From: Kutzneria viridogrisea
GTDB taxonomy: Bacteria; Actinomycetota; Actinomycetes; Mycobacteriales; Pseudonocardiaceae
Length of the DNA: 64,000 bases
Direction: 5' to 3'
NCBI GenBank assembly: GCA_014138725.1
Contig: JACJID010000007.1
Span: 186,001-250,000 of the forward strand
Positions 4,739 to 23,952 of this stretch are shown here, piece after piece. The stretch's first letter is position 1, and every line of letters starts with the position of its first letter. Position numbers and translations under genes: made by a program. The notes beneath the pieces were generated by a model that saw only the letters and a program-made list of their open reading frames with translations, did no database searches and had not been told where the DNA came from.

Positions 4739-4753
4739 CTCCGCGGAGGCAGG

Positions 4754-5341: not shown

Positions 5342-5471
5342 ACCAGGTGCCAGGGCAACGAAGTCGGGCACATTCCACCGACCTGCGGTAGCACGAGAAC
5401 GTTGTGGACATCGGCATCCACCACGAAAATGGGGTGAGGAGCGGACGGTCGCGGGCGTAGCGTCGGCGGCC

Positions 5472-6251
5472 GTGATCGGTGAGACGAAAGCGGGGGATGA
5501 CCCGGCGGACGGCTGGTTCCCCGAGAGCGTGGCCGCGGGCTACGACGCCCCGGGCGGCGCGAACTTGCCCGAGGTGGTCACGCCCGCGGTGGACGTCCTC
5601 GAAGACCTGGCGGACGGCCCGGTACTCGAGTTCGCCGTCGGGACCGGGCGGATCGCCGTGCCGCTGGCCGCTCGCGGCGTGCCGGTGAGCGGCATCGAGC
5701 TGAGCCGGGCGATGGCGGCGCGGATCGCGAGCAAGCCAGGCGGCGACGCGGTCGAAGTCACGATCGGCGATATGACGAGGACGCGGGTGGTCGGTCAGTT
5801 CTCGATGGTCTATCTGGTGTTCAACACGATCAGCAACGTGACCACACAGGACGGGCAGGTCGACGTCTTCCGCAATGCGGCCGCGCACCTGCGGCCGGGC
5901 GGGTTGTTCCTCGTCGAGGTGGGCCTGCCGGACCTGCGTCGCCTACCACCCGGACAGGACATCGTCCCGTTCGCGGTAGCGCCCGGCGCCGACGGCGGCG
6001 GCTATGTCGGATTCGACCAGTACGACGTCGTCACGCAGAAGTTCACGTCGAACCACGTCACCGTGTCACCGGACGGGACGGGGCAGTTCCGCCGTATTCC
6101 CTTCCGGTATGCCTGGCCGGCCGAGATGGACCTCATGGCGCGCATCGCCGGGATGCGCCTGAAGTACCGCTGGGCGGACTGGGACCGCTCGGAGCTCACT
6201 GCTGAGAGCACCAAACACGTGTCGATCTGGGAGAGGGACCCGAGCACGTGA
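5472..6251 (+). CDS. Class I SAM-dependent methyltransferase
   Basis: A 259-residue protein with a Rossmann-type methyltransferase core. Motif I is EFAVGTGRIAVPLA near residues 53-66, with GIELS as the acidic strand-2 residue that binds the SAM ribose and an LRPGG motif near 142-146. The GTG start at 5472 gives the normal N-terminal leader (YDAPGG region) of the family. The substrate is not predictable. It stands alone after a 130-base gap and converges with the nucleotidyltransferase gene. Confidence 0.85.
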   Translation: MIGETKAGDDPADGWFPESVAAGYDAPGGANLPEVVTPAVDVLEDLADGPVLEFAVGTGRIAVPLAARGVPVSGIELSRAMAARIASKPGGDAVEVTIGDMTRTRVVGQFSMVYLVFNTISNVTTQDGQVDVFRNAAAHLRPGGLFLVEVGLPDLRRLPPGQDIVPFAVAPGADGGGYVGFDQYDVVTQKFTSNHVTVSPDGTGQFRRIPFRYAWPAEMDLMARIAGMRLKYRWADWDRSELTAESTKHVSIWERDPST

Positions 6252-6403
6252 TGCTGCGCCACAGCCAACCTGGCCCGACCTCTGGATGCGGTTGTTGGGC
6301 CGGTGGCTGGGAGTCGACCTCCTGATCGGGGGCGAGGACGCGCGACCGGAGGCAACTGAGCACGTTCGCCTGCCCATGCAGACTGGTCCGGGGCGTCCTG
6401 CGG

Positions 6404-7261
6404 TCAGGATGCGGCCGGCAGCGCGAGCGCGGCATCGATCGTAGTGTCCAGGAAGGCGAGGGTGTCGCGGCGACGGGCCAGCGGGTTGCGGTAACCCCGG
6501 CGGCCTTCGGTGCCCTCGGTGCGCAGGCTCAGGCATTCTGCGATGATGCGCTGCCAGCGCGGGTCGAACTCTTTCTGGGCGTACCGGCCGGCACCGCATT
6601 TGGAGGTCATCGTTCCGGTGGCGAGCAGGTGGTGCAGCCGGCTCACACCGAGAACTGCCCACACGGGGAACCATGCACTGAGCCCGATGGCGAGAGACAG
6701 AGCACTGCGCTGTCGTTTCTGCTGCCACCACGGCCGCCAGTAGGTGCGGAGGTTGTCGACGGTGAACGCGCGCAAGGCATCCTGGTCGGCCCACAGGTCC
6801 ACCTCGGCCGGGTGCGGCCCGCGCACCGCGATCCCGTGCCAGGCCAGCTCGCAGAACATCACAGGGTTGACGCCGGACCGTCCGGCCTGTGTGAACCGGC
6901 TCTCCTGCGCACAGGGAACGTCGGGACAACCATCCGGCCCGGCGGCAAGGTCGCTCCAGGTAAGCACAGCACCATCAAAGTGTGGCCGGGGGAAGCGGGC
7001 CACGGTGTGGGCGTGCGCCTTGGCCAACGCTGCCATCTCTGGAGACTCGGGCTCCAGGCGGTGGTCGGTCACCGCGACGAAGTCGATGTCGCTGGCTGTG
7101 CTGAGCCGACCGCGACCAGCGCCGCGGGGATGAAAATCGCCCAAGGCTACCGATCCAACCAGGTAGAAGCCGGTGACCAAACCCGGCGCCACCCTGTCCA
7201 CGGCCATCAGGAAGAGGTCCACACTCCGACCGACCTCGCCCGGAAGATCGTTGCTAGGCAT
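6404..7261 (-). CDS. Nucleotidyltransferase domain protein (aminoglycoside adenylyltransferase-like)
   Basis: A 285-residue protein with the polymerase-beta nucleotidyltransferase signature: GS at 36-37 and the metal-binding DID at 58-60. A long helical C-terminal half follows, like ANT(9)/aadA-type enzymes and their DUF4111-type relatives. The ATG at 7261 is preferred over an upstream TTG. Such proteins transfer AMP to a small molecule or protein; antibiotic resistance is possible but unproven. It converges with the methyltransferase. Confidence 0.75.
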   Translation of the reverse strand: MPSNDLPGEVGRSVDLFLMAVDRVAPGLVTGFYLVGSVALGDFHPRGAGRGRLSTASDIDFVAVTDHRLEPESPEMAALAKAHAHTVARFPRPHFDGAVLTWSDLAAGPDGCPDVPCAQESRFTQAGRSGVNPVMFCELAWHGIAVRGPHPAEVDLWADQDALRAFTVDNLRTYWRPWWQQKRQRSALSLAIGLSAWFPVWAVLGVSRLHHLLATGTMTSKCGAGRYAQKEFDPRWQRIIAECLSLRTEGTEGRRGYRNPLARRRDTLAFLDTTIDAALALPAAS

Positions 7262-7343
7262 GCCAGGCAACCTAGCGGCTCACCTCGGAACCTTGACCGT
7301 GCCTCGCCGGCGACCACCGGGTCACGCCCGCCGGCGCGGGCCG

Positions 7344-7398
7344 TGTCATGAAAGTGCCGTTCAGGACATCCGGTGTCCCAAACGGCACTTTCATGACA
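7344..7398. repeat. 55-bp near-perfect intergenic palindrome
   Basis: Arms at 7344-7361 and 7381-7398 (TGTCATGAAAGTGCCGTT and its exact complement) flank an inner GGACA/TGTCC stem around TCCGG, with only a two-base bulge on each side. It sits about 80 bases upstream of the nucleotidyltransferase start and downstream of the MFS gene. It could fold as a terminator-like hairpin or be a dispersed REP-type element; there is no T-tract. Confidence 0.8.
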
Positions 7399-7638
7399 CC
7401 GCAGCCTCGGCCCGCACCGGATACCAGGTCAACGATGCGCGACGCGCCACTAATAGCGGATCGCGTCGATCACTACCCGGCGGCGGTGCTTCTCCGGCCG
7501 CCCGCCCCGCCACTCGCGGCCACCACACCAGTCCGCACGACGCTGCGACACCCACGACAGGCACGCTGACCGGCAAGGAACACTGGACCCGGGCTCCTGC
7601 TGCGAGAGAACTGGCTTCAGCAACCGCAACTGTTGCGT
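7399..7638. other. Gene-free stretch downstream of the MFS exporter
   Basis: 240 bases between the palindrome and the MFS stop codon. The open frames here lack a ribosome site and have mixed third-position bases, so no gene is called. No further repeat was seen. Confidence 0.5.
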
Positions 7639-9893: not shown

Positions 9894-10283
9894 TTACCGG
9901 GTCGTCCTGGCGACCTGTTCGCGGAACAGCTGCTGGTCCGCGTCGCGTTCCTCGTTGAGGCCCTGGTGGTGCTGTTCGTCCTCGGCCAGCGCGGGATAGC
10001 CCATGACGGCCTCCCAGCCGTGCGGGCCGTCGCCGCGCAGGGCGAACTTCCAGTCCGCGGCCAGGCTGCCGTCGACCACCTCGAAGAAGTCCATCGAGCA
10101 CCACAACGGTTCCGCGTCGTCATCGGCGACAAGGACGACCACACCGCCGTTGAAGTACCCGACGCCCTGGGCCGGGTAGTCCCTGTCCGGCGTGAGCTGG
10201 AAGACGGTGTGCTCGGAGTAGTGGAGCCCCCGGTAGTCCTCGGGCAGGGTGCTGCCCCGATTCGTGCGGCAACGCAGGATCAT
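9894..10283 (-). CDS. Hypothetical protein, candidate immunity protein
   Basis: A 129-residue soluble acidic protein of no family I recognise. Its ATG at 10283 overlaps the stop of the preceding secreted toxin-like gene by one base (TGATG), so the two are translationally coupled. A small cytosolic protein encoded directly after a polymorphic toxin is the usual layout of toxin and cognate immunity, which is the basis of this call. Nothing in the sequence itself proves immunity. Confidence 0.6.
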   Translation of the reverse strand: MILRCRTNRGSTLPEDYRGLHYSEHTVFQLTPDRDYPAQGVGYFNGGVVVLVADDDAEPLWCSMDFFEVVDGSLAADWKFALRGDGPHGWEAVMGYPALAEDEQHHQGLNEERDADQQLFREQVARTTR

Positions 10284-11578
10284 CAGCCTTGCTCATCCTT
10301 GAACTTGAAGTCGTCGACCTCGCCGGTCCGGGTGTTGCGCACGTAGTGCACATCGACCTTGCGGCCCGACGCGCCCTTGAGCTGCTGGCTCATCTTGACC
10401 CAGCCGTCCTCGGCGGGCCACCGGGCGTCGTTCATCTTGATCGGCAGAACCTTACCCGCCTCCGGGTGGGCCAGAGCCTGGTCCATGGCAAGCTGCTCGT
10501 GCAGGTTGTCAGCCCTGGTCCGGCCGGTCGAGCCCCGGCCAAGCGGGGTCGCCTTCGCCGTCTTGGCTGCCTCCTCAGCGCCGGTGACCAGCTTCTTCAG
10601 CGGGCCGCCGACCACGGGGACGGCGGCCAGGCCACGCAGGGACCGGTCGAACCCATCCAGCTCGCCCTGGGTGAACACGTCCTTGCCGATCACCGCCTCG
10701 ACCAGGTTCTTCGCCGTGCCGACCCCCGGCACGAAGTCGGTCAGTACCGACAGTGACTTGGCCAGGTCGGGGTCCATCGTGTTGGGGTTGGTGGAGATCG
10801 GCTGGCCGAACGCGCGGTCGAAGTCGAAGTGGATGCCCTTGAGGCTCAGGTCACCGACGCGGAACCACGGCGAGTTCTGGAACACGCGCATCGACTCCCG
10901 CATTTCGGCGAGGGAGCCGTTCATCGCGGCCATGGTCGCCGGAACCTGGTCCAGGCTGGCGTTCATCCGCGCGAAGGAAGCGTTGGCCTGCTCGAACGCT
11001 TCGTCCATGCCCGCGAAGGACACCGACAGCCTGCCCAGTGACGCGGCCATCTCGCGGTTGTTGGCCTCCAACGCGGCGACGTCGACGTGGATGTCCAGGT
11101 CGGGAATTGCCTTCACCTGGTCCACGAACCGCTTGACGCTGTCGGTCACCACGGGCAGTGCCCCGCGGAGTACATCGACCACGATCTTGAGCTTGTCGAG
11201 CGTGTCCACAGCGTGCTTGAGGCGCTCGACGAGCTGGGCGACCCGCGCGGCATCCTGCGCGGCTGGCGTGGTCCGCACCAGCTCGGCGATCTCGGCCGCG
11301 TCCCGCAACTCGGCGTCCACGACGGCGAGCACGCCCTCGCGCAGGTGGGCGGAAACCAATCCGCTCAGCAGCGCGCGAGCACCCATGCGCGCCCGCTGCA
11401 GGGCGGCCACCGGGTCCTCTTTGACCTTGTCGACGACCTTGCACAACTCCAGTTCGGGGTGCCGGTCGCACAACAGCGCCTGTGCCGCCGGAGCGGGCAC
11501 CACCAGAAGAGTCGCGACAATCGCGGCGACGAAACCCGCCACGCCCAGCCGTCTTACCGCTCGAAGTCGAGCAAACAT
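10283..11578 (-). CDS. Secreted polymorphic toxin-like protein
   Basis: A 431-residue protein with an N-terminal signal peptide (basic RLRAVRR, a hydrophobic stretch at about 10-30, cleavage near APAAQA). A long helical middle is rich in Ala and Met repeats that look coiled-coil. A pre-toxin-like segment follows at about 290-345 (FVPGVGTAKNLVEAVIGKD then a DR and PVVGGP motif). The last 75 residues form a compact domain with WPAEDGWVKM and HYVRNTRTGEVDDFKFK, charged motifs of the kind seen in nuclease toxin tips. The ATG at 11578 has GAGGGGG upstream; an in-frame extension to 11749 lacks the signal peptide at its N-terminus. Its activity is unknown; the coupled downstream gene is the candidate antidote. 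Confidence 0.7.
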   Translation of the reverse strand: MFARLRAVRRLGVAGFVAAIVATLLVVPAPAAQALLCDRHPELELCKVVDKVKEDPVAALQRARMGARALLSGLVSAHLREGVLAVVDAELRDAAEIAELVRTTPAAQDAARVAQLVERLKHAVDTLDKLKIVVDVLRGALPVVTDSVKRFVDQVKAIPDLDIHVDVAALEANNREMAASLGRLSVSFAGMDEAFEQANASFARMNASLDQVPATMAAMNGSLAEMRESMRVFQNSPWFRVGDLSLKGIHFDFDRAFGQPISTNPNTMDPDLAKSLSVLTDFVPGVGTAKNLVEAVIGKDVFTQGELDGFDRSLRGLAAVPVVGGPLKKLVTGAEEAAKTAKATPLGRGSTGRTRADNLHEQLAMDQALAHPEAGKVLPIKMNDARWPAEDGWVKMSQQLKGASGRKVDVHYVRNTRTGEVDDFKFKDEQG

Positions 11579-11724
11579 CACTTTATCCCCCTCTTCGGGC
11601 ACACAACCTAACCGAGAGGGAAGGATGGTGAAGAACCGCCGGATCCAGATGCGGCATACATCACAGAGCGTAACCGTCGAGTGTGGACTGCTCGGTGACG
11701 CGCTGCCGGGTCGCCGCGAACGGC

Positions 11725-11751
11725 GGGTGGCGCCCGGTGTGGGCGCCACCC
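11725..11751 (-). terminator. Hairpin after the VOC/AraC pair
   Basis: Perfect 10-base stem GGGTGGCGCC / GGCGCCACCC with a 7-base loop, seven bases after the VOC stop codon at 11758. No U-tract, as is common in high-GC actinomycetes. Confidence 0.65.
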
Positions 11752-11757
11752 TGGCCG

Positions 11758-12174
11758 TCAGGCGCCGGACAGCGGCTGGCTGAACCGGATGCTGTTGCCG
11801 AAGGGGTCACGCAGGCCGCAGTCGATTCCGTACGGGCGTTCGGTGGGCTCGTCGGTGAACTCGACCCCCTTGGCCAGCAGCGTCTCGTACGTCTTGCGGC
11901 AGTCCTCGGTGGTGAGGAACAGCGAGCCGCCCATGGCACCCTTGGTCAGCAGGTCCCGGACCTGCTCCGCCGTCGCCTCGTCCATCCTGGGCGGCCCCGG
12001 CTTCTCCAGCAGGATCTCGCGGTCTGACTGACCGGGCACGTTGATCGTCAGCCACCGCATGAAGCCGAGGTCGGCGTCGGTGTTGACCTCCAGGCCGAGC
12101 TTGCCGACGTAGAAGTCGAGCGCCTCGTCCTGGTCGAGCACGAAGATCTGGGAAATCTTGATGGCGTTGAACAC
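11758..12174 (-). CDS. VOC family protein
   Basis: A 138-residue glyoxalase-like protein starting at GTG 12174 (reading FNAIKISQIF). Its pattern is typical of the family: DEALDFYVGKLG near the N-terminus, a central RWLTINVP strand and the C-terminal GIDCGLRDPFGNSIRFSQ. It lies 56 bases after the AraC-type regulator in the same direction, a common pair in actinomycetes in which the regulator controls a VOC protein. The substrate is unknown. Confidence 0.85.
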   Translation of the reverse strand: MFNAIKISQIFVLDQDEALDFYVGKLGLEVNTDADLGFMRWLTINVPGQSDREILLEKPGPPRMDEATAEQVRDLLTKGAMGGSLFLTTEDCRKTYETLLAKGVEFTDEPTERPYGIDCGLRDPFGNSIRFSQPLSGA

Positions 12175-12230
12175 GTGACCGACGATAGTGCCGGCCCCAC
12201 CGCGACGCTTATCCAAAACTGCTGTGCTGA

Positions 12231-12623
12231 TCAGCCGCGGGGACGCATCCAGGCCATCGCGAAGCAGGTCGGCACGTCGGCCAGCGGCCCACGCCGCCGG
12301 TACGCCGACGGCGACTCGCCGACGATGTCCCGGAACGTCCGGCTGAAGGTCCCGAGGCTGGTGAAGCCGACCTCCATGCAGATGTCGGTGACGTCCCGGT
12401 CGCACGAGCGCAGCAGGAACATGGCCCGCTCCACCCGACGGCGTTGCAGGTAGCGGTGCGGTGTCTCACCGAAGGTGGCGCGGAAGGTCCGACTGAAGTG
12501 CGCCGGCGAGACGTGCGCGACCCGGGCCAGCGTGGGCACGTCCAACGGCTTGGCGTAGTCCCGGTCCATGGTGTCGCGGGCCCGCAACATGCGGCGGTTG
12601 ATCTCCTCCACGACACGGCTCAC
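12231..12623 (-). CDS. AraC family transcriptional regulator
   Basis: A 130-residue regulator consisting almost only of the two-helix-turn-helix AraC DNA-binding domain. The first HTH contains PTLARVAHVSPAHFSRTFR (about 29-47). The second contains TDICMEVGFTSLGTFSRTFR (about 79-98), ending in SPSAYRRR. There is no sensor domain. It precedes the VOC gene and probably controls it or itself. Confidence 0.88.
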   Translation of the reverse strand: MSRVVEEINRRMLRARDTMDRDYAKPLDVPTLARVAHVSPAHFSRTFRATFGETPHRYLQRRRVERAMFLLRSCDRDVTDICMEVGFTSLGTFSRTFRDIVGESPSAYRRRGPLADVPTCFAMAWMRPRG

Positions 12624-13094
12624 GTCCAGATGACATCACACGATGCGAAGGACCGCGGCCACCACCGTGCCACCGGCCACTCCCCCTGCCGAGCACCCGG
12701 CGACTCGGGGCGCTGGGTGCGCGGACAGGCACAGTCGGTGACAACACGGCATTTCGACCGTCATCCCACACCGAAATCATTCCGTCTTTCGCAGCAACGA
12801 ACGGGCCAAACCTTCAACTGTCAACTGTGAACTAATTTTTTTGACGACCCCCGCCGCTAGCCTGAAAATTGTTCGCACAGACACTTTTGACCGACTCTCA
12901 CACAAGGGGCACTCTGCCATGGGGGGCTTTCGTATGCCGTCGATCGACGACCTATCTGTTCCGGCCACAAGACTGTGCCCCTCCTGACCTTGACAACCAC
13001 CTACCCCAGGTGAGCGCTATACCGATGACCCGGCGCAGCGGCGCGCCAGGCGCAGGTCACCGTGAACAACCATGGAAAGTTCTTCGAGGTCTTG
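12624..13094. promoter_or_regulatory. Leader/promoter region of the polyketide locus
   Basis: 470 bases between the AraC start and the first acyltransferase. It contains an unusually AT-rich patch near 12810-12875 (TCAACTGTCAACTGTGAACT, then a run of T ending in TTGACG), a plausible -35 region. Short frames here have atypical codon use and no good ribosome site, so no gene is called. Confidence 0.4.
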
Positions 13095-14201
13095 ATGCGC
13101 ACCCTTTTACTTTTCGACGGTCTTGGCGGGAGCAACGACACCGTGGTCGCCGCACTCCGCACGCTTTACGCGAGACCTGAGAACCACGCCTACTTCGAGC
13201 GCGTTTTCGCCGTTGTCGACGAGGTCCTGACTTATATCGGCACCGAGGCCCGCAATGCCCTGCTGCCCGCCGGGCTCGCAATGAAGCGATGGCTGGAGCC
13301 GTCCGCTGATTCACCGCCGGGCCCGCTGGACAACTCGATCGTGGCCGGTGTGTGCGTCCACGCGTACCAGGTCTGCCACCTCCAGCCGACCGGGAACAGT
13401 GCGGACGGTGCGGTGGCGGCTCTCGGGCACAGCATCGGCTTGCAAGCGGCGGTCGTCGCCGGGATGCGACTGCGCCGGATGGACGAGTTCCTCGCGCTGG
13501 CAGCCAGTTCGCTCAAGCTGGTCGCCGTGAGCCTGGTCCGCGCCCAGCAACTGGCCGCAGGCAACGGCGCCGACCCCGACCTGGTGCGGCGCTACCTGGC
13601 GCTGGGCCGCCGGAACCGGCCGCCCAGCCCAATGGCCTCGCTGTCCGGGATGTCCCGCCACGAACTGCACGGCGCCGTACACCGCTACAACCAGGACGGT
13701 GGACGAACGCTGTCGCTGGGCCTGGTCAACTCCCCCACCACCCAGGTGCTCAGCGGATCCACCGAGGACCTGCTCGGCTTCTACTTCGCCAACGAGTCCC
13801 GCTTCGTGCAGTCCCAGGCGAGCTGGGCGTTCCTGCCCGGCACCATCCCGTTCCACAGTGCCCAGCTCGCACCGGCGGCGCAGCGGGTCCGCGAGGACCT
13901 CGGGTTCATCGGGCCGCTGCCCCGTGCCGACCAGCTGGAGCTCCCGGTGTACGCCACCGACGGGCCCCGCAACCTCCAGCGGGCGACCGACCTGGTGGAC
14001 GAGTTCCTGAACCAGGTGCTGGTGCGGCCGATCGAGTGGGAGCTCGCGGCCGGGCACGCGGTCAGCGACGCACGGGTCGAACGCGTGGTGGACTGCGGCC
14101 CCGGCCCCGGCGCGCGCCGGTTCACCCGCGAATGCCTCGGTGCTGGCGCCCAGGCCGTGCGCTTCGAGTCGGTCCATCAATCCCCGCGCCGAGCTCGGTA
14201 G
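13095..14201 (+). CDS. Discrete acyltransferase resembling the AT/SAT domain of type I fatty acid synthase
   Basis: A 368-residue stand-alone acyltransferase. Catalytic features are the GHSIG nucleophile elbow with Ser113 and His254 in IPFHSAQL. The segment between them (SPMASLSGMSRHEL..., then SLGLVNSPTTQVLSGS) has the order and spacing of the AT domain of fungal/mycobacterial type I FAS and fungal starter-unit transacylases, rather than of FabD. Predicted role: loading a starter or extender acyl group onto the ACP of the downstream AT-less synthase. The ATG at 13095 is chosen because LLLFDGLGG aligns with the family N-terminus and GAGG lies seven bases upstream; a GTG at 13062 is the alternative. 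It is ten bases from the next gene. Confidence 0.75.
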   Translation: MRTLLLFDGLGGSNDTVVAALRTLYARPENHAYFERVFAVVDEVLTYIGTEARNALLPAGLAMKRWLEPSADSPPGPLDNSIVAGVCVHAYQVCHLQPTGNSADGAVAALGHSIGLQAAVVAGMRLRRMDEFLALAASSLKLVAVSLVRAQQLAAGNGADPDLVRRYLALGRRNRPPSPMASLSGMSRHELHGAVHRYNQDGGRTLSLGLVNSPTTQVLSGSTEDLLGFYFANESRFVQSQASWAFLPGTIPFHSAQLAPAAQRVREDLGFIGPLPRADQLELPVYATDGPRNLQRATDLVDEFLNQVLVRPIEWELAAGHAVSDARVERVVDCGPGPGARRFTRECLGAGAQAVRFESVHQSPRRAR

Positions 14202-14211
14202 GAGAACAGCC

Positions 14212-15063
14212 ATGCATTGTTTACTTTTCCCTGGTCAAGGTGTGCAGCGCAGAGGGATGGGCGCGGAACTGTTCGGCCGCTTCCCCGAGGCCACGGCACT
14301 GGCCGACGAGGTCCTCGGCTACTCGATCGAGCAGCTGTGCACCCGCGACCCGGACCGGCGCCTGCGCGACACCCGGCACGCCCAACCGGCCGTGTTCTTC
14401 GTCAACGCGCTGCTGGGCCAGCAACAGCTCACCGAGCACCCCGGCCGCTACCGGTACTTCGCCGGGCACAGCCTCGGTGAGTACAACGCGCTGGTCGCCG
14501 GTGGCGTGCTCGACCTGGCCACGGGGCTGCGGCTGGTCAAGCGGCGCGCGGAGCTGATGGCCGAGATCACCGGCGGCGGCATGTCGGCCGTGCAGGGCGT
14601 GCCCGCGGCCTTCGTCCGGCGCGCGCTGGCCGAGACGGGGCTGGGCAAGGTGTTCGTGGCCAACCTCAACGCCGACACCCAGACCACCATCGCCGGTGAC
14701 CGCGCGGAGATCGCCGTGGCCGCCAAGGCGATCGGCGCCCTGCCCGGCGCCCGGGTGACCCCGATCAACGTCAGCGGCCCGTTCCACACCCCGCTGATGG
14801 ACCCGGCCGCGCAGCGGTTCCGGGCCGTGCTGGCCGAGTACCGGTTCGCGGAGCCCCACACCCCCGTGGTCTCCAGCATCACCGGCGAGCTGTTCGACCC
14901 CGCCAGCGGCCCGGACCTGCTGGCGCGCCAACTGTCTGCGCCCGTGGAGTGGACGCGCGCCGTGTCGGCACTGCGCGCCGCGGGCGTCACCGACTTCGAC
15001 GAGGTCAACGGCCAGACCTTGAGTTCGCTCGTACGCGGGACCACTGGGAGATGGGTGAGATGA
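14212..15063 (+). CDS. Trans-acting malonyl-CoA:ACP acyltransferase (FabD-like)
   Basis: A 283-residue FabD-type transacylase. It has the N-terminal LFPGQGVQ oxyanion loop, the GHSLGEY motif with nucleophile Ser87, an Arg in the KRRAELM helix expected to bind the malonyl carboxylate, and the catalytic His192 in GPFHTPLM. It should load malonyl (or another dicarboxylic) extender units in trans onto the ACP of the next protein, which has no AT domain. TAGGAG precedes the ATG. Its stop overlaps the synthase start (ATGA), implying coupled translation. Confidence 0.9.
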   Translation: MHCLLFPGQGVQRRGMGAELFGRFPEATALADEVLGYSIEQLCTRDPDRRLRDTRHAQPAVFFVNALLGQQQLTEHPGRYRYFAGHSLGEYNALVAGGVLDLATGLRLVKRRAELMAEITGGGMSAVQGVPAAFVRRALAETGLGKVFVANLNADTQTTIAGDRAEIAVAAKAIGALPGARVTPINVSGPFHTPLMDPAAQRFRAVLAEYRFAEPHTPVVSSITGELFDPASGPDLLARQLSAPVEWTRAVSALRAAGVTDFDEVNGQTLSSLVRGTTGRWVR

Positions 15064-18000
15064 GCAAGGACATCGCGATCGTCGGTCTGTCGGTGGACGT
15101 TCCCGGGGCCCGCGACCTGGACGCCTTCTGGCAGATCATCAGCTCGGGCACCAGCGTGCACCGGCCGTTCCCGCAGGACCGGCGGCACAAGCTCGACGAG
15201 TACATCCGCTACCTGCGCGCCACCAGCGTCGAGCCGGTGCCCGACCCGGACATCGACTACCACAACGGCTGCTTCCTCGACACCGTCGACACCTTCGACT
15301 ACGCCGCCTTCGGGATGAACCCGAGGCAGGCCACGCTGACCGACCCGCACCACCGGATGGTCCTGCGCGCCATGGTGCTGGCCTTCGAGGACGCGGGCTA
15401 CTCCGCCGACCGGTTGCGCGGCAGCAGGACCGGCGTGTTCGTCGGCTTCGCGGTCAACCCGGGATCGACGTACCTGGACTACCTCTGCCGGATCGACCCG
15501 ACCATCAGCCAGCAGGCGATCACCGGGAACATCCCGACGATGCTGGCCAACCGGATCTCGCACCTGATGGACCTGCGCGGCCCGAGCCTGGTCGTGGACT
15601 CGGCCTGCTCGGCGACCCTGGTCGCGGTGCACCAGGCCAAGAACGCCCTGCTGGCAGGCGACTGCGACATGGCCGTGGTGGGTGGTGCCCGCATCGTGTT
15701 CGCCCCGGTCAAGCACCCGCACTCCGCCATCGGCATCGAGTCCTCCGACGGGGTCACCCGCACCTTCGACGAGGCCGCCGACGGCACCGGATTCGGCGAG
15801 GGCTCCGGCGCGGTCGTGCTCAAGCGGCTGGAGCGGGCGGTGGCCGACGGCGACCAGGTCTACGCGGTGATCAAGGGCAGTGCGGTCAACCACGACGGCA
15901 ACACCGAGGGCATCACCACCCCGGACTCCGACTCGCAGTCCGAGCTGCTGCTGTCGGCCTGGCGCAACGCGGACATCGACCCCCGCACCCTCGGCTACCT
16001 GGAGGCGCACGGCACGGCGACCCGGGTGGGCGACCCGATCGAGCACGAGGGCATCAAGCGCGCCTTCGCCCAGCACACCTCGGACAAGGGCTTCTGCGCC
16101 GTGGGCACGGTCAAGGCCAACGTCGGGCACCTGTTCGAGGGCTCCGGGGTGATCGGGCTGATCAAGGCGGTCGCGGTGCTGCGCAACCGGATGATCCCGC
16201 CGCAGGCGAACTTCACCAACCCCAACCCGAAGCTCGACTTCGCCTCGGGACCGTTGTACGTCTCCACCAGCCTGAGCCCGTGGGACTCGCCTGAGGGCCC
16301 CCGCCGCTGCGGTGTGAGCGCCTTCGGCCTGGGCGGTACGAACGCGCATGTCGTTGTGGAGGAGTACATCGACACGACGGTGCGCCCCTGCGCACCTCAG
16401 GGCGAGTTCCTGTTCACCCTGAGCGCGGCCACCCCGCGCTCGCTGACGTGGCTGGTCGAGCGGTACATCCGCTTCATCGACGGCGCCGGCCTGGAGGGTG
16501 CCGACATCGCTGACGTCTGCTACACCAGCCAGGTCTCGCGCAGTTCGCACCGGCACCGGATCGCCTTGGTGGTCACCGACGTGGCCAACCTGCGCGGGCA
16601 GTTGGCCGACCTCCTGACGACCGAGCCCGGGCCACTCGGTGACGGTCCGCTGGCGGTCGAGGCCAAGTCCTACCTGCGGGGCGCCCCCGTGGACTGGGAG
16701 CGGCTGGTGGGCGATCACCGCCCCCGCGTGGTGCGGCTGCCCGGCTACGCCTTCGACGAGACGCTCGCGTGGATGCAGTTCCCCGAGACCTGGCGGGAGC
16801 AGATGTCCCTGACGACCGTGGACGAGCGGCACCCGGTGACCCACGACGTCGAGTTCCAGCCCACCGCGGCGCTCCCCGAAACCGAGATTCCCGTTGGTGC
16901 GAGCGTGGTGGCCCTGGTCGACCCGGACACCGAGGCCGAGGCGTTCCTGGCGGCCGCCGAACTGGGCGAGGTGCGGGTCCTGCGCCTGGGCGAGCCGATC
17001 GAGCCCGGCGGTGACCCCTTCACCGCCGACAGCACCGCTTCGTTCGAGCACATCGCCCGGTTGGTCGGTGAGGGCGGCGTCACGCACATCGTGCACGCCC
17101 TCGCCTTCGAGCAGGCCCCGGCCACCGATGTCGACGAGGTCGAGCGGCGGACGGGCAAGAACCTGCACAGCCTGTTCCTGTTGTCCAAGGCCCTCATGGC
17201 GGCCGGGGCCAAGGTGGACCTGACGGTGCTGACCCGCACCGCGCTCAGCGTCGAGGAGGGGGACGGCACCGTCGTCACCGAGAACTCCGCACTGGTCGGC
17301 TTCGGCAAGGTGATCGGCCGGGAGTACCCGTACATCAAGGTCAAGCACGTGGACGTGGACCTGGCGGCGGCGTCGGCCCTGCGGGCGGAGGTCTTCTCCG
17401 ACCAGCACGGGCTGTTCCTGCTGCGGGGTGAGCAGCGGATGCGCGAGGTGTTCGTGGAGGTCACCGAGGTCGCCGCCGACGGCCCGCAGACCTACCTCAA
17501 GCCCGGTGGGACCTACCTGATCACCGGCGGCACCGGAGCGCTCGGCCTGGCGGTGGCCAAGTCGTTCGCCACCAAACAACCCGACATCACCCTGGTGCTG
17601 CTCAGCCGCTCCGGTGTGCCGCCGCGCGAGCAGTGGGACGAACTGCTCGCCACACCAACGGATTCGGCCGCGGCCGTCCGGATCCGGGCGGTCAGGGAGC
17701 TGGAGGAGCTGGGCGCCGCGGTCGTGGTCAGCAAGGCCGATGCCGGGGACCCGGCCTCGCTCACCGAGGCGGTCACCGCAATCCAGCGCGAGCACGGGCG
17801 GATCGACGGCATCGTGCACGCCGCGGGCCTGCCCGGTGGCAGCACGGTGATGTTCCGCGAACTGGACGAGTTCGACGCGGTGGTCCGGGTGAAGCTGCAC
17901 GCGGCGTTCCTGCTCGACCAGCTCACCGCGGCCGACCGGCCCGACTTCCTCGTGCACTTCTCCTCGGTGGCCTCGGTCTTCCCGGCCCCCGGCCAGGCCG

Positions 18001-18656
18001 ACTACGCGGCGGGCAACTACTACCTGGACAACCTCGCCCGGTCCCAGGCGGGCGGCCCGTGCCACGTGATCGCGCTGGACTGGGTCGCCTGGAAGGAGAT
18101 CGGGATGGCCGTGGACCACGGGACCAACGGGGACACCATGTTCAAGGCACTGCCGACGGCGGCGGCACTGGACGTGCTGGACGCGGGCCTGCGGTCGCGG
18201 CGGTCCCGGTTGTTCGCCGGTGAGCTGCACTACCGCGGCGAGCTGATCCACCTGCTGCGCTCCTACGACGTCACCCTCTCGCCCGAGATCGGGACCAAGG
18301 TCGAGCACGAGATGCAGGCGCTGGAGGCCCGGCTGCTCAAGGAGCAGGAGAAGACCAAGGTCACCATCGCCGCGGTGCAGGTCGAGTTGACGGGCCGCGC
18401 GGACGGTGAGTACAGCGAGGTCGAGCGGTCGGTCGCGCAGTGCCTGGCGCTGGCCTTCGGCTACCCCGCACTGGACGTGGAGGCCGACTTCTTCGACCTG
18501 GGTGGCGACTCGATCATGGCCGCCTCGGTGGCGGGCAACATCGCGGTGTACCACGACGTGCAGTACGACGTCGCGGACCTGCTCGCCGACCGGACGATCG
18601 CCGAGATCGCCTACCACGTCGAGGACCTGGCCGAGTTCGCGGCGGACGCCGCCTGA
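15060..18656 (+). CDS. AT-less polyketide synthase, KS-KR-ACP
   Basis: 1198 residues. The ketosynthase (about 1-430) has the full triad: Cys183 in DSACSATL, His317 in HGTATRVGDP and His357 in NVGHLFEG. A post-KS linker of trans-AT style (LSAATPRSL...VCYTSQVSRSSHRHR) follows. The ketoreductase has GGTGALG near 823-829, Ser969 and Tyr982 at the standard 13-residue spacing. The carrier domain near 1110-1198 has LGGDSI with Ser1151 as phosphopantetheine site, a GGDS form shared with peptidyl carriers. There is no AT, DH, ER, MT or thioesterase, so acyl loading must come from the two upstream acyltransferases and release from another protein. The product is probably a short beta-hydroxyacyl chain, or a longer one if the enzyme iterates (inference). 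Confidence 0.92.
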   Translation: MSKDIAIVGLSVDVPGARDLDAFWQIISSGTSVHRPFPQDRRHKLDEYIRYLRATSVEPVPDPDIDYHNGCFLDTVDTFDYAAFGMNPRQATLTDPHHRMVLRAMVLAFEDAGYSADRLRGSRTGVFVGFAVNPGSTYLDYLCRIDPTISQQAITGNIPTMLANRISHLMDLRGPSLVVDSACSATLVAVHQAKNALLAGDCDMAVVGGARIVFAPVKHPHSAIGIESSDGVTRTFDEAADGTGFGEGSGAVVLKRLERAVADGDQVYAVIKGSAVNHDGNTEGITTPDSDSQSELLLSAWRNADIDPRTLGYLEAHGTATRVGDPIEHEGIKRAFAQHTSDKGFCAVGTVKANVGHLFEGSGVIGLIKAVAVLRNRMIPPQANFTNPNPKLDFASGPLYVSTSLSPWDSPEGPRRCGVSAFGLGGTNAHVVVEEYIDTTVRPCAPQGEFLFTLSAATPRSLTWLVERYIRFIDGAGLEGADIADVCYTSQVSRSSHRHRIALVVTDVANLRGQLADLLTTEPGPLGDGPLAVEAKSYLRGAPVDWERLVGDHRPRVVRLPGYAFDETLAWMQFPETWREQMSLTTVDERHPVTHDVEFQPTAALPETEIPVGASVVALVDPDTEAEAFLAAAELGEVRVLRLGEPIEPGGDPFTADSTASFEHIARLVGEGGVTHIVHALAFEQAPATDVDEVERRTGKNLHSLFLLSKALMAAGAKVDLTVLTRTALSVEEGDGTVVTENSALVGFGKVIGREYPYIKVKHVDVDLAAASALRAEVFSDQHGLFLLRGEQRMREVFVEVTEVAADGPQTYLKPGGTYLITGGTGALGLAVAKSFATKQPDITLVLLSRSGVPPREQWDELLATPTDSAAAVRIRAVRELEELGAAVVVSKADAGDPASLTEAVTAIQREHGRIDGIVHAAGLPGGSTVMFRELDEFDAVVRVKLHAAFLLDQLTAADRPDFLVHFSSVASVFPAPGQADYAAGNYYLDNLARSQAGGPCHVIALDWVAWKEIGMAVDHGTNGDTMFKALPTAAALDVLDAGLRSRRSRLFAGELHYRGELIHLLRSYDVTLSPEIGTKVEHEMQALEARLLKEQEKTKVTIAAVQVELTGRADGEYSEVERSVAQCLALAFGYPALDVEADFFDLGGDSIMAASVAGNIAVYHDVQYDVADLLADRTIAEIAYHVEDLAEFAADAA

Positions 18657-18680
18657 GCCGCGAGCGGATCGGGAAACGTC

Positions 18681-20018
18681 ATGACGGACATGACCACCGG
18701 GCCCGCGCTGCGCCGCATCGTGGGTTTCGCACTGCCCCTCACCGCGGCCAACCTGCTCCAGCAGGGCTACCTGCTGGTCGACAGCGTCGTCGTCGGGCAC
18801 TACCTCGGCGTGGAGGGGCTGGCCGTGGTGGGGACCTGCGGGCCGCTGTTCTACCTGCTGAACTCGATGTTCATCGGGCTGGGCACGGCGTTCACCATCC
18901 GGCTGGCCCACCTGCGGGGCGCCGGGCAGGAAGGGCAGCGGCGCGGCGTGGTGCTCTCGCTGGCCCTGCTGGCGGCCGTCTGGTCGGCGGGCTGCGTCCT
19001 GCTGGCCACTACGCTGGCTGGTCCCGCCTTCGCCCTGATGGGGATCCACGGTCCGCTTGCGGTCTCCTGCGCCCAGTTCTTCGCGACGTTGTCGATCGGC
19101 TTCCCGGGCATGTTCGGCACGGCCGCCGTCAGCGCCTACCTGCGCGGCCTGGGCAACTCACGGTCGGCGATGTGGGTGCAGGCGGTGGGCAGCGTGGCCA
19201 ACATCGCTCTGGTCTGGCTGTTCGTGGCGGTGCTGGACGGAGGGGTCCGCGGTGCGGCGCTGGCCACGGTGGTGTCCAGCACCGCGGCGCTGGTCGTGGG
19301 CCTGGTCTACTCGGCCAAGGTCTACCCGGTGCCGCGGACCGGGTCCGCACCGGCCGTGCGGCGTGAGCTCGTCGACGCCATACGATTGGGATTCCCCTTG
19401 GCCAGTCAGCACATCATCCTCTCGGTGGGGATCATGGTGCTGGTCTGGATCATCCAGTCCTACGGCGCGGTGGTGCTCGCCGCCTTCACGGTCGCCTCCC
19501 GGCTGGAACTGTTCACCTGCATGCTGTTCCTGGACTTCTCCGGTGGCGTGACCACGTTCGCGGCCCAGAACCTGGGCACCGGGGACAGTGCGCGGGCCAG
19601 GCGGGGCCTGCTGCACACGATCGCGCTGACCATCGGGTTGTCGGCACTGGTCGCCGGGGTGGTGCTGCTGGCGCGCTCACCCATCGCCGGGCTGTTCACC
19701 GACGACCTGGCCACGCAGGCGCTCACCGAGCACTACATCCTGATCGTCTACCCGTTCCTGGTGCTCTACACCGTGATGGTGGTCGCCCACGGCTACCTCA
19801 ACGGTGCGCGCCGCACCACCGCGCCGTTGATCTGCACGATCATCGCCTTCGTGCTGGTGCAGATCCCGTTCGCCTACCTGCTGCACGGGCCCGTTGGCGT
19901 CGACGCCGTCATGTGGGCGGTGGTCGCGGGCTGGTCGGCGGGGCTGACCTACAGCCTGTTCTGCCTGCGCCGCGTGCTGTTCGCGCGCCCGGAACCGGTG
20001 CTGAGCACAGCGCCGTGA
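18681..20018 (+). CDS. MATE family efflux transporter
   Basis: A 445-residue membrane protein with about 12 helices in two similar halves. The MATE N-terminal signature reads PLTAANLLQQGYLLVDSVVVGHYLG, with AYLRGLGNSRSAM in the loop after helix 4-5 and AAQNLGTGD at the start of the second half. MATE proteins export cationic or amphipathic compounds using Na+ or H+. It lies 24 bases after the synthase, so export of or self-protection from its product is likely. Confidence 0.92.
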   Translation: MTDMTTGPALRRIVGFALPLTAANLLQQGYLLVDSVVVGHYLGVEGLAVVGTCGPLFYLLNSMFIGLGTAFTIRLAHLRGAGQEGQRRGVVLSLALLAAVWSAGCVLLATTLAGPAFALMGIHGPLAVSCAQFFATLSIGFPGMFGTAAVSAYLRGLGNSRSAMWVQAVGSVANIALVWLFVAVLDGGVRGAALATVVSSTAALVVGLVYSAKVYPVPRTGSAPAVRRELVDAIRLGFPLASQHIILSVGIMVLVWIIQSYGAVVLAAFTVASRLELFTCMLFLDFSGGVTTFAAQNLGTGDSARARRGLLHTIALTIGLSALVAGVVLLARSPIAGLFTDDLATQALTEHYILIVYPFLVLYTVMVVAHGYLNGARRTTAPLICTIIAFVLVQIPFAYLLHGPVGVDAVMWAVVAGWSAGLTYSLFCLRRVLFARPEPVLSTAP

Positions 20019-20049
20019 CCGGCGAGTTACTGGACATGAAGGGTTCATC

Positions 20050-21483
20050 GTGATCACCAAGAGCACAGCCACGGCCGAGTTCCACGGCGGGCGGTCCCGG
20101 GTCGCCGCCCTGGCCTGGGGGCAGCAGGCCACCTGGGACGTCATGCGGGGCTGGCCGCACGAGGACCGGTCGTTCTTCACCCTCACCCGGTGGCTGCCGG
20201 TTCCGCTGCTGCTCGGGCTGGGCGAGGTGCTGGAGCAGATCAGCGAACTGGTGCTGCGCCACGAATCGCTGCGCACCCTGTACCACCCGTCCCACCGGGG
20301 TGAGGCGACCCAGGAGGTGCTGGCCTCGGGCGCGGTCACCGTCGAGGTCTTCGACAGGCCCGCCGAGGACCCGGTGGACTTCGCCACGATCGTCAACGAC
20401 TGCATCGCACGCATGAAGGCAACGGGGTTCGACCACGACAAGGAGCTCCCCGTCCGGTTCTCCGTCGCCACCCACGAGGGGATCCCCGTACTGCTGATGT
20501 TCGGGGTCTCCCACCTGTCCGCCGACCACATGAGCACGGACCTGCTCTCGGCCGAACTCACCGCTCTCCTGAAGGCCCGCGCGGACGGCACGGCCGCACC
20601 GGCGGCCAGGCAGGCCCTGCAACCGGTGGACCTGGCCACGATGGAGCACTCGCCGGAGGGACAGCTGTGCAACGTCGAGGCGATGCGCTACCTGCGGCAG
20701 CAACTGGACCGGCTGGCGCCCGGCCTGGTGCCCGTGCGGGCGGTCCCCTCCTCGCCGCGCTTCTTCCGAGCCGAACTCGAATCCGACGCCATCCCGGTGG
20801 CCGTGCGCGCGGCGGCCCGCCGGTACCGGAGCACCACTTCCGTCGTACTGCTGTCGATCACCACGGCACTGGTCCGCTGCTTCTGCCCGGGACCGGTGTA
20901 CCCGCTGGACATCATGCAGAGCAACCGGGTCGCGCCCGAGCTGTTCGCCACCGTGTCGAGCTTGAACCAGGCCGTGCGGACGGCGGTGGACCTGACCGCG
21001 GGGTCCTTCGGCGAGGTGCTGCATCAGTCCGAGTCGGTGATGGCCGCGGCCCGGCGCCGCTCCAGGTACGACGGCCGCGCCGCGAAGGAGGTGGTCCGCA
21101 CCGTCGCCAGCTCGCGCGGCACCGAATTCGAACCCGGTTTCCAGTTCAACGACATGTGGTCGACAGTGGCGAAGTCGGCGGCCAGGCCCGCCGGGGGCTT
21201 GGCCGAACTGGACCGGCTGACCGAGACCACGACCTTCGACTGGCCGCAGAAGACGGACTCCGAGGGCATGGCGATCTTCCTGGACACCCGTGGCACGCCC
21301 GAGCGGATCAACCTGTCACTGATGGCCGACACCGCGTTGCTGCCACCCGAGGACATCCGCGCGTTCCTCTTCGCGTTCGAGCGGATCGCGATCGTGCTGG
21401 CCACCAGCGACATCACGTTCACCCAGATCGAGGAGTTGTTCGCCGAACACCGGACCCACGCGGGGAACCGCAGCGGGAGTTGA
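20050..21483 (+). CDS. Free-standing condensation-domain-like acyltransferase
   Basis: A 477-residue protein of the chloramphenicol-acetyltransferase/condensation superfamily (NRPS C domains, Pap acyltransferases). The catalytic HHxxxDG motif appears as SHLSADH with His155 and Asp159: the second His and the Asp are kept, the first His and the Gly are replaced. The upstream VLRHESLRTLY strand is typical of the fold, and the C-terminal half has a FNDMWS loop. Being last in the operon, it probably transfers the carrier-bound acyl chain to an amine or alcohol and so releases the product. The acceptor is unknown. GTG start at 20050, 31 bases after the MATE gene. Confidence 0.82.
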   Translation: MITKSTATAEFHGGRSRVAALAWGQQATWDVMRGWPHEDRSFFTLTRWLPVPLLLGLGEVLEQISELVLRHESLRTLYHPSHRGEATQEVLASGAVTVEVFDRPAEDPVDFATIVNDCIARMKATGFDHDKELPVRFSVATHEGIPVLLMFGVSHLSADHMSTDLLSAELTALLKARADGTAAPAARQALQPVDLATMEHSPEGQLCNVEAMRYLRQQLDRLAPGLVPVRAVPSSPRFFRAELESDAIPVAVRAAARRYRSTTSVVLLSITTALVRCFCPGPVYPLDIMQSNRVAPELFATVSSLNQAVRTAVDLTAGSFGEVLHQSESVMAAARRRSRYDGRAAKEVVRTVASSRGTEFEPGFQFNDMWSTVAKSAARPAGGLAELDRLTETTTFDWPQKTDSEGMAIFLDTRGTPERINLSLMADTALLPPEDIRAFLFAFERIAIVLATSDITFTQIEELFAEHRTHAGNRSGS

Positions 21484-21609: not shown

Positions 21610-22851
21610 ATGGTGACGATGGCGCAACTGCGGGACGTCAACCTTACATCGTGGCGCGACGCCGCCCGAGGATGGCTCACCTTGTCCCAGCACACGAGAC
21701 AGGCCGCACTCGACATCCGCGACCAGGGAGCCGGGCCGGTCTCCGACGCATGGCGCGACGAGGTCGGCCAAACCGCCTACGACGTACTCAACAAACTCGC
21801 CATCGAGTACGACATGGCCGCTGACGTGGTCAAGGGCGCCCAACTGGTCCTCGACGGCCTGGCCGACGCCGTCGAGATCGCCCAGAGGGAACTGACCTCC
21901 GCGCTCTCGCTGGTCGCGCGGCCGATCTCCGTGACCGAGGACGGCACCGTGCACGTCGACCTCGCCATGACGCTCGCCCCCGCGGAAGTCGAGCAGGTCA
22001 CCAAGCGAGCCGCCACGATCGAGAAGATGATCTGTGACGCCGTCGAAGCCGCCAGCCAAGCCGACCAGACCGCCGCCCAGGCACTGGACAAACTGCGACA
22101 TGGCACCGAGCTAGCGATCACCGGAGACCGCGACCACGACATCGACCAAGCCCTGGCACTGCAAGAAGACGCCTCCCTGGCCCAGGTCAACGCCCTGCAC
22201 TTCACGCTGCCCCACGGGCAGGGCCCCGACGTGGTCGCCGCGTGGTGGAACGGCCTGACCGAGCGCGAACGCCAGGAACTCCAGCTCGCGCTGCCCACCG
22301 AACTGTGCGACCTGGACGGCATCCCCGACACGGTGAAAGCCGACCTGCGCGGTCACGACGGCTACGACCGCATGGCCGTGGTGAAGTACGCCCTCGACCA
22401 CGTCGAGGACACCAGCATCGACAAGTGGCCGTCCAACTGCACCCAGTTCGTCTCCACCGCCCTGTCCGCCGGAGGCATTCCCGCAGCCGGGCCCTATCCC
22501 CTGCTCGGACCGCAGTGGCACGACGGCGGCGACTGGCCGTTCACCAACCCCTCCCGCGCCTGGGTCAACTCCCAGGCCTCCCACGACTTCATGCTCGACC
22601 ACGGCGGCACCGAAGTCCCCCGCGGTGAGGCGAAACCCGGGGACGTCATCTACTTCCGCAACGGCAAGGGCGAGGTCTACCACGCCGCGATGGTCACCGC
22701 GGTCACCCCCGACGGCGACATCAAGTACACCCAACACACACCCGGCCGCACCGACAGCACCCTCGACGGCCGAGCCAGCTCCATCCGCGACGACCAAGGC
22801 TCCAACGACATCGCCATCGTCCGCGTCAAACCAGATTGGGCGGCATCGTGA
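21610..22851 (+). CDS. WXG100-like protein with C-terminal amidase domain
   Basis: A 413-residue protein. The first ~200 residues are helical and contain a WXG-type layout (SWRDAARGWLTLSQHTRQAA, then SDAWRD), as in proteins passed to type VII secretion. Residues about 275-410 match the actinobacterial putative amidase fold, with NCTQFVSTAL (catalytic Cys candidate near 277) and a VYHAAMVTAV strand carrying the His. It has no Sec signal. Predicted role: a secreted amidase acting on cell wall or peptide, or an effector. ATG at 21610 with GAGG upstream. Its stop overlaps the next start (GTGA). Confidence 0.78.
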   Translation: MVTMAQLRDVNLTSWRDAARGWLTLSQHTRQAALDIRDQGAGPVSDAWRDEVGQTAYDVLNKLAIEYDMAADVVKGAQLVLDGLADAVEIAQRELTSALSLVARPISVTEDGTVHVDLAMTLAPAEVEQVTKRAATIEKMICDAVEAASQADQTAAQALDKLRHGTELAITGDRDHDIDQALALQEDASLAQVNALHFTLPHGQGPDVVAAWWNGLTERERQELQLALPTELCDLDGIPDTVKADLRGHDGYDRMAVVKYALDHVEDTSIDKWPSNCTQFVSTALSAGGIPAAGPYPLLGPQWHDGGDWPFTNPSRAWVNSQASHDFMLDHGGTEVPRGEAKPGDVIYFRNGKGEVYHAAMVTAVTPDGDIKYTQHTPGRTDSTLDGRASSIRDDQGSNDIAIVRVKPDWAAS

Positions 22852-23246
22852 GCCGAACGCGAGGATGGATCCTGGCCGTCGTGGCCGTGACCGCGTTGGC
22901 GTCGGTGGCCATGGCGGTGATCACCGACATCCGGGCGCTGCACGCCGACATCGACTTCCTCGGCCCCCAGGGCCCCAGCTGCACGACGATCCGCGCCACG
23001 AACTGCCTGCCCTGCGAGCTGTCCACCCAGGCCACCGTCTGGGCGGTCGCCGCACTGGTACTCACCTGCGTCACCGTGGCGCTGGCCTGGCCGCGTCGCC
23101 GCACCCGCGCTGCGATCGCTGTGCTGGTGGCTCCCGTGCTGCTACTCGGGCCGCTCGCGGTCACCGCGACCGCGACCGCCGCCGCCGATCTGTCCGCCTA
23201 CACCACGCAGATCACCGACCTGGGGGCCCTGTGCCAGCACCGGTAG
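22848..23246 (+). CDS. Small membrane protein with external cysteines
   Basis: 132 residues, three predicted membrane helices (about 8-28, 62-82 and 88-112). A loop between helices 1 and 2 holds three cysteines (SCTTIRATNCLPC). GTG start overlapping the amidase stop. No family recognised. The position inside a WXG/amidase operon suggests a membrane partner, anchor or protective protein for the amidase. Confidence 0.65.
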   Translation: MSRTRGWILAVVAVTALASVAMAVITDIRALHADIDFLGPQGPSCTTIRATNCLPCELSTQATVWAVAALVLTCVTVALAWPRRRTRAAIAVLVAPVLLLGPLAVTATATAAADLSAYTTQITDLGALCQHR

Positions 23247-23635
23247 ACACCCAGCCCGCGCTGCGCCACCCGACGACCTGGCCCGCATCGCGGCTGCTCG
23301 CCGCGGCGCTCGTCGGCGACGCCATCACGATCGGCCTGGTCCAGGCAGCCATGCCCGCCTACCAGCAGTGGGTACACCAGATCGCCACCAACTGCGCCCG
23401 CTGGGCGTTCGCGACCGTGCCGACCGAGGTGTACCTCGCCTACTGGATCGCCCTGCTGGTCGCCGGCGGGACGGCGTGGTTGACCTGGCTCGCCCTCACC
23501 ACGCCCGGCCACCCAGCCGTCCGGATCTGCGCGGTCGTCCAGGCGGTCCTCGTCGTCCTGCTGCTCAGCCAAGTCGCGCTGCTGGCCTACGACCTGCACA
23601 CGGGGTCGCTGCCGCTGTACAAGCACTGCAACTGA
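23231..23635 (+). CDS. Small membrane protein
   Basis: 134 residues starting at GTG 23231, overlapping the previous gene by 16 bases. Three hydrophobic stretches (about 16-36, 62-84 and 93-117), one Cys in an external-looking loop (NCAR) and a Cys at the C-terminus (KHCN). It resembles its upstream neighbour in size and topology, possibly a diverged pair. Function unknown; coupled expression with the amidase is clear from the overlaps. Confidence 0.6.
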   Translation: MPAPVDTQPALRHPTTWPASRLLAAALVGDAITIGLVQAAMPAYQQWVHQIATNCARWAFATVPTEVYLAYWIALLVAGGTAWLTWLALTTPGHPAVRICAVVQAVLVVLLLSQVALLAYDLHTGSLPLYKHCN

Positions 23636-23652
23636 CCCGTGGGAAGGGAACC

Positions 23653-23952
23653 GTGGCCATCGACATGCAACCCGGTGAGGTCAAGCGCATCGCCGGCACG
23701 CTTCACAATGCCACCGACCAGGCCGACCGTGGCGTCACCACCTCACTCGCCCCCAGCCTCACCACGGCCACCGCCACCGCCCCCTGGCAGAGCGCGTCGG
23801 CACTGCGCGACTGTGCCACCGCCTGGCAGAACCACCTGAGCGAGCTCATCGGCCGCACCCACCAAGCCGCCGACCGGCTGCGCACCACCAGCGACCACTA
23901 CGCGCAGGTCGACCAGCGCCTCACCAAGGTCTTCACCGACCTGCACCCCTGA
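23653..23952 (+). CDS. WXG100/ESAT-6-like small protein
   Basis: A 99-residue, mostly helical acidic protein, GTG start with GGGAAGGGAA upstream. It has a turn with a central Trp (TAPWQSASALRD, residues about 44-55) between two helices, the hallmark layout of ESX-type secretion substrates and their partners. It is the last gene of the amidase operon, so it may be a co-secreted partner or chaperone of the amidase. Confidence 0.65.
   Translation: MAIDMQPGEVKRIAGTLHNATDQADRGVTTSLAPSLTTATATAPWQSASALRDCATAWQNHLSELIGRTHQAADRLRTTSDHYAQVDQRLTKVFTDLHP

Follow-up and report, generated by a model that had tools for sequence, protein, structure and literature searches.

A conserved five-gene operon of Kutzneria viridogrisea and other actinomycetes as a candidate minimal trans-acyltransferase polyketide pathway

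Trans-acyltransferase (trans-AT) polyketide synthases (PKSs), represented here by those with the ATs DisD, PksC and PksE, combine ketosynthase (KS) modules that lack an embedded AT with discrete malonyltransferases. Starter loaders of another kind are the acetyltransferase of the fungal fatty acid synthase (FAS) beta subunit and the fungal SAT domains, and a condensation-fold enzyme acts at the release step in PDB entry 6cgo, by its title a C domain that releases the chain during enacyloxin synthesis; some condensation-fold enzymes work free-standing. A putative AT-less PKS in another setting, accompanied by nonribosomal peptide synthetase (NRPS) and thioesterase (TE) genes, is described in a report on Rickettsia buchneri (PMC6300072). 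Here we describe a five-gene operon, AT1-AT2-PKS-MATE-C, at positions 13095-21483 of a 64,000-nucleotide stretch of the Kutzneria viridogrisea genome ("the window"; assembly GCA_014138725.1, contig JACJID010000007.1, positions 186,001 to 250,000 of the forward strand). The operon shares with trans-AT PKSs an AT-less KS module and a discrete malonyltransferase, but it has only one module, it adds a second, FAS-beta-like AT, and no TE, dehydratase (DH) or other tailoring gene is common to its loci. Searches of open-access papers for the set or its parts did not show it among the matches listed.

The five genes form a conserved unit. With a probability of about 0.6, we read this unit as a self-contained, patchily distributed trans-AT mini-pathway in which loading by AT1 and AT2 would be followed by one extension, ketoreductase (KR) reduction, release by the C protein and export by the MATE protein. 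Gene order, co-conservation, family assignment and catalytic residues underpin this model. The genes, and the domains of the PKS protein, which ends in an acyl carrier protein (ACP), are as follows.

13095..14201, + strand: AT1, discrete acyltransferase of the fungal FAS-beta acetyltransferase/SAT type, proposed starter loader; start ATG 13095
14212..15063, + strand: AT2, discrete malonyltransferase of the trans-AT type, DisD/PksC-like; start ATG 14212
15060..18656, + strand: PKS, AT-less type I KS-KR-ACP protein; start ATG 15060
~15066-16214, + strand: KS domain of PKS (Pfam ketoacyl-synt)
~17508-18098, + strand: KR domain of PKS, after a linker (Pfam KR)
~18432-18617, + strand: ACP domain of PKS (Pfam PP-binding)
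18681..20018, + strand: MATE, MATE family exporter; start ATG 18681
20050..21483, + strand: C, free-standing condensation-fold acyltransferase, proposed release enzyme; start GTG 20050

All five open reading frames are present on the + strand, as a preliminary description of this stretch had noted in reporting five tightly packed same-direction genes, and the spacings between successive genes are 10, -4, 24 and 31 bases. Gene starts were refined from the window sequence and the start sites of relatives. For the PKS gene, an upstream GTG at 14949, which was the automatic pick, was set aside in favour of the ATG at 15060, which overlaps the AT2 stop codon (15061-15063) as ATGA. The GC content at codon position 3 lies between 0.87 and 0.95 across the five frames.

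When genome contigs were scanned with the PKS in a pattern-based, non-exhaustive search, 28 loci were recovered, comprising 18 close relatives (L039-L056, 56-79% identity), a Treponema fragment (L057) and nine distant PKS loci (28-39%). The close relatives belong to four actinobacterial families and were found in Umezawaea (U. tangerina, L039), Saccharothrix, Actinokineospora, Micromonospora, Actinoplanes, Streptomyces, Kitasatospora and Sanguibacter. All 18 share the order AT1-AT2-PKS-MATE, with genes overlapping or separated by gaps of at most 88 bases, and overlaps of 1 or 4 bases recur among the loci. An orthologous C follows MATE in 16 of the 18 (at 35% identity in L055); in L052 a C-type protein is encoded on the same strand about 1.25 kb past MATE, and L051 has its C-type gene upstream, in divergent orientation. 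A C-type protein is therefore near the core in 18/18 relatives and, with the window, in 19/19 loci. The MATE frame as picked extends 64-511 bases into C in L040, L041, L042 and L047. When frames picked by codon composition were clustered across the 19 loci (the first 36 kb of the window and 17-24 kb at each other locus, some ended by contig ends), the families present in more than four loci were the five operon genes and antisense frames over C (seven loci). A lack of co-conservation of the five genes had been named beforehand as one finding that would refute the preliminary description; the genes proved to be co-conserved across the four families, and the observation is confirmed.

The distribution in genome samples is patchy. 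Among 297 Pseudonocardiaceae genomes, a sample that shares genomes with the 18 loci, so that the two counts are not additive, C occurs at 50% identity or more in 15, K. viridogrisea included. A MATE gene adjoins it in all 14 of the other carriers, and the tail of the PKS gene lies within the short flank in 13 of them. In a phylum sample, AT1 matched 2 of 396 genomes (E <= 1e-10), its own and one other, in which AT2 and the start of PKS follow AT1. The pairwise identities of the five proteins correlate strongly (r 0.80-0.96; 120 pairs from 16 loci, L051, L052 and L055 being left out of these correlations and means), as expected of a unit inherited or moved together, although vertical descent alone would give the same pattern. 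Mean identities over these pairs are 85% for the KS, 80% for the ACP, 78% for AT2, 77% for the KR, 76% for the whole PKS, 74% for MATE, 57% for C and 55% for AT1, and may be read to mean that the extender core stays constant while starter loading and release vary more.

The two discrete ATs differ in ancestry, as the preliminary description had stated. AT2 matches Pfam Acyl_transf_1, and its nearest solved relatives are DisD, PksC and PksE, with 205 bits to DisD versus 138 to E. coli FabD. Its GHSLG motif is kept in 19/19 loci, as is the Arg aligned to that of DisD, presumably the holder of the malonyl carboxylate, and the AT2 gene adjoins the PKS gene at every locus; a discrete malonyl-AT of the trans-AT type is thus encoded beside the synthase. 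AT1 matches Pfam SAT at 27.9 bits (cut-off 22.8); among its orthologues, that of L043 falls below the cut-off and that of L039 is not reported. In a search of solved structures with a profile built from the alignment of 18 of the 19 loci (L050 left out), FAS beta chains scored best, at 3.3e-31, versus 3.4e-12 for the best malonyltransferase, and the match falls in the acetyltransferase region of the fungal chains. Predicted fold points the same way: fungal FAS chains occupy ranks 1-20 with template modelling (TM) scores, normalised by the model, of 0.75-0.83, and FabD-type chains reach ~0.60-0.66 among the matches listed. The nucleophile Ser113 of the GxSxG motif and His254 are conserved in 19/19 loci. 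Where malonyltransferases carry the Arg, AT1 holds Ser, Thr, Gly or Ala in all 19 (aligned by eye via the FAS alignment), and because of this replacement a dicarboxylic substrate is unlikely. AT1 thus shares sequence profile and predicted fold with the fungal FAS-beta acetyltransferase and SAT domains but, unlike those, is a separate bacterial protein encoded next to an AT-less PKS.

The synthase likewise agrees with the preliminary description, which had claimed intact KS and KR residues and no AT, DH or TE. No AT, DH, enoylreductase (ER) or TE domain match was found within the PKS protein, and in all 19 family members the 420 residues that follow the KS are free of an AT GxSxG motif, which identifies a KS module without an embedded AT. 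The KS Cys-His-His residues are present in 19/19 loci, the KR Ser-Tyr-Asn residues in 19/19 loci and in the Treponema fragment, and the ACP GGDS motif in the window PKS. Neither of the markers of KR stereochemistry, LDD and Trp, was seen in this KR.

A tree built from 62 KS domains places all 19 KSs of the family in a single clade, supported at 100 in the SH-like approximate likelihood ratio test (SH-aLRT). Joined to it at 99 SH-aLRT, on long branches flagged by the program, are both KSs of a PKS from Alkalihalophilus that is also AT-less. The family clade stands apart from seven cis-AT KSs of the K. viridogrisea genome. Four other cis-AT KSs, however, share the family side of the midpoint split, and the tree consequently does not establish trans-AT descent; relative to known trans-AT PKSs, the family KS is a clade of its own in the small reference set used here. 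That set was uncurated and drawn from searches made in this analysis. It began as 77 domains, a set from which short matches and loci L009-L025 had been left out; three duplicates were dropped, as were 12 domains whose downstream part was too short to judge for an AT, and one too-short row, from L026, was retained and labelled AT-less without basis.

Release is tentatively assigned to the C protein, which the preliminary description had named, in the absence of a TE, as the only visible release enzyme; no TE match was found, and the fold and two catalytic residues of C accord with such a role. Pfam Condensation matches C weakly (31.8 bits, cut-off 30.6). Its predicted model (mean predicted local distance difference test score 86.5; 17 sequences) has the CAT-like double fold of the condensation superfamily and retrieves 240 PDB matches at E <= 0.001. 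The 50 listed are all condensation or related NRPS chains and include 6cgo and SgcC5 (4znm), with identities of 14-21% in the listed matches. C shares the condensation fold and the catalytic His and Asp with 6cgo, SgcC5, CmnI (9uay) and other enzymes of this fold, but it carries SHxxAD instead of HHxxxDG: the first His is Ser in 17/17 aligned orthologues (L051 and L052 left out of the alignment), whereas His155 and Asp159, the second His and the Asp, are invariant in the same set. An SHxxxD motif is also seen in the C-type proteins of L051 and L052. Since it lacks HHxxxDG, we class C as a condensation-fold protein and do not count it among the canonical C domains. Changes in the active site are reported to be tolerated by C domains, but the one studied there concerns the last motif position and not the first His (PMC8097023). 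The MATE protein is a clear family member, at 146.8 bits to PF01554 (MatE; cut-off 24.9) and 211.2 bits to TIGR00797 (cut-off 147.4).

Taken together, these assignments suggest the following pathway. AT1 would load a simple monocarboxylic acyl starter, for which the FAS-beta acetyltransferase suggests acetyl by analogy, and AT2 would load malonyl onto the KS-KR-ACP protein. The KS would then carry out one round of decarboxylative condensation and the KR would reduce the beta-keto group to give one beta-hydroxyacyl-ACP, from which C would move the acyl group to a soluble amine or alcohol; the MATE protein would export the resulting conjugate. The product would thus be a beta-hydroxyacyl group joined to an amine or alcohol, as the preliminary description had also proposed. 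The direction of loading, the order of events, the single extension round, release by C and export are all inferred.

The nature of the acceptor was approached through the gene neighbourhoods. Beside the divergent operon copy of L051 (positions 2-7532) lie a MetRS-like gene (identified by eye), a cupin, Lys/Orn N-monooxygenase matches, a GNAT protein and a LuxR regulator. Hydrazine synthetase clusters combine MetRS-like, cupin and N-hydroxylase genes, so that such a gene set adjoins the divergent L051 member; none was recognised beside the window operon, and in other carrier genomes the matches lie away from the operon, as judged by contig numbers. Across the Pseudonocardiaceae sample, the MetRS-like gene was found in 9/15 operon carriers versus 43/282 other genomes (p 0.0002). 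Within the four carrier genera, the figures are 9/15 carriers versus 22/35 non-carriers (p 1.0), the 35 being the non-carriers among the matches listed, with some genomes without a match falling outside them. Five of six other Kutzneria-genus genomes hold the MetRS-like gene without the operon, and the copy of K. viridogrisea itself is weaker (41%) and lies on another contig (C1). Hydrazine was accordingly rejected as a general acceptor, the association vanishing within genera, and remains a lead for L051. Among distant C homologues (~25-33%), the one place inspected, part of a Streptomyces plasmid that carries an NRPS-type gene, offered no clue to the acceptor.

Several observations weigh against the proposed mini-pathway. 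Two of the 19 loci (L054 and L055) have another residue in place of the His of the AT1 GxSxG motif. The identity of AT1 to FAS chains is only ~20-25%, and a role as acyl hydrolase may also fit. The C motif is non-canonical, the Pfam score of C barely exceeds the cut-off, and the protein diverges fast, with a mean identity of 57% versus 76% for the PKS; given the divergent gene of L051 and the distant one of L052, the core may be able to do without the C found here. The export step, in turn, would follow from family membership of the MATE protein. A second AT-fold protein, which removes stalled acyl groups by hydrolysis, is common in trans-AT clusters, and on this precedent AT1 could be an editing hydrolase, the KS being primed otherwise, for example by malonyl decarboxylation or from a host acyl-ACP. 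The missing malonyl Arg would fit a hydrolase too, but AT1 is nearer to the FAS-beta acetyltransferase/SAT loaders than to FabD-like chains (a comparison that leaves editing hydrolases outside), and a one-module synthase would presumably have little to proofread; we consider this reading rather unlikely. Single-module type I PKSs can also be iterative, and repeated use of the module before release would give a polyhydroxy or longer chain. That precedent is the argument for iteration, whereas a KR without DH or ER would, on repeated use, be expected to yield a polyol, an indirect objection that leads us to regard iteration as improbable.

The five genes might instead be a cassette that supplies an acyl side chain, attached by C, to a compound produced by another locus of the genome. 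The host genome, at 10.25 Mb, is rich in PKS sequence (121 places match the whole PKS protein, single domains included), the two ends of the unit, C and AT1, evolve fastest, and the hydrazine-synthetase-like set adjoins the core in L051. Yet no partner gene family recurs in more than four of the 19 loci, the unit carries its own exporter, and the co-occurrence with hydrazine synthetase genes disappears within genera, as described above; a cassette is therefore unlikely, though we give it some weight. To the idea that the genes are chance neighbours and not one pathway we attach almost no credence: the different ancestry of the parts speaks for it and nothing further was found, whereas the order is constant in 18/18 loci, the identities are correlated, and the sole other AT1 match in the phylum sample has AT2 and the PKS start alongside.

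Features at the borders were compared with other genomes of the genus.

12660..13094, no strand assigned: 5' intergenic region, between the left-hand genus-conserved block and AT1

Among six other Kutzneria-genus genomes sampled, C at 50% identity or more occurs in none, five having only distant C matches and one having none. DNA similarity to five genomes of the genus breaks off shortly before the operon, at 12638-12658. The left border (11758-12623, - strand) encodes a glyoxalase-family protein and, by eye, an AraC-like frame, both conserved in the genus without the operon; since the similarity stops at 12638-12658, they were rejected as operon parts. The shared left block is only ~880 bases long and for that reason no empty site is demonstrated; beyond it, one stretch (one genome, 65% identity) of five 19.9 kb pieces matched the window. 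No upstream motif common to the loci was seen on inspection by eye. In the PKS tree, a quick tree in which L051, L052 and L055 are flagged as long branches, the Micromonosporaceae rows need at least three changes on starred branches, a placement that suggests, without proving, transfer of the operon. Further left (10283-11749, - strand) lies a Pre-toxin TG domain protein that may belong to a polymorphic toxin system. Directly after the operon (21610-23950, + strand) are an Amidase_6/CHAP protein, matched in only one of six further genomes from the genus, and, all by eye, two small membrane-like proteins and a short helical WXG-like protein.

Outside the actinomycetes, a contig of an uncultured rumen Treponema (L057, positions 3-3404) carries the KR-ACP end of a PKS of the family type and, after it, a MATE gene; the contig end cuts off what lies upstream, and KS and AT parts are not seen. 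A KR-ACP tree of 40 rows, in which 11 of the 19 members are represented, groups the fragment with the family (100 SH-aLRT). The host is uncertain, as the contig comes from a metagenome bin and measures only 3.7 kb; searches with the MATE protein against 145 other genomes of its genus and with the PKS fragment against 197 other genomes of its phylum each found only the starting genome. Clostridial matches to the Treponema protein (6/391 genomes at E <= 1e-60, 28-32% identity) were rejected as members, their long open frames and the tree indicating modules of larger PKSs.

The operon can be viewed as a variation on trans-AT PKS logic. A wider view, which we hold tentatively and think somewhat doubtful, is that it represents a mobile family of minimal trans-AT pathways not described before. 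In these, a nearly constant generator of beta-hydroxyacyl-ACP (mean KS identity ~85% over the 16 loci) with a FAS-beta-type loader would be paired with fast-diverging C-type transferases. The exported products would be small acyl conjugates that might act as signals or bind metals, and the family would occur in actinomycetes and, to judge from the rumen Treponema fragment, beyond. If the mini-pathway is as proposed, it would be among the smallest complete trans-AT pathways known to us, so small that routine genome mining may overlook it. Its five genes could be moved and reconstituted whole, and a single tube would then suffice to test how a discrete FAS-beta-like AT loads, how one module extends and how a C-type enzyme off-loads. 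Its conservation and its spread across families would then suggest that the product is under selection.

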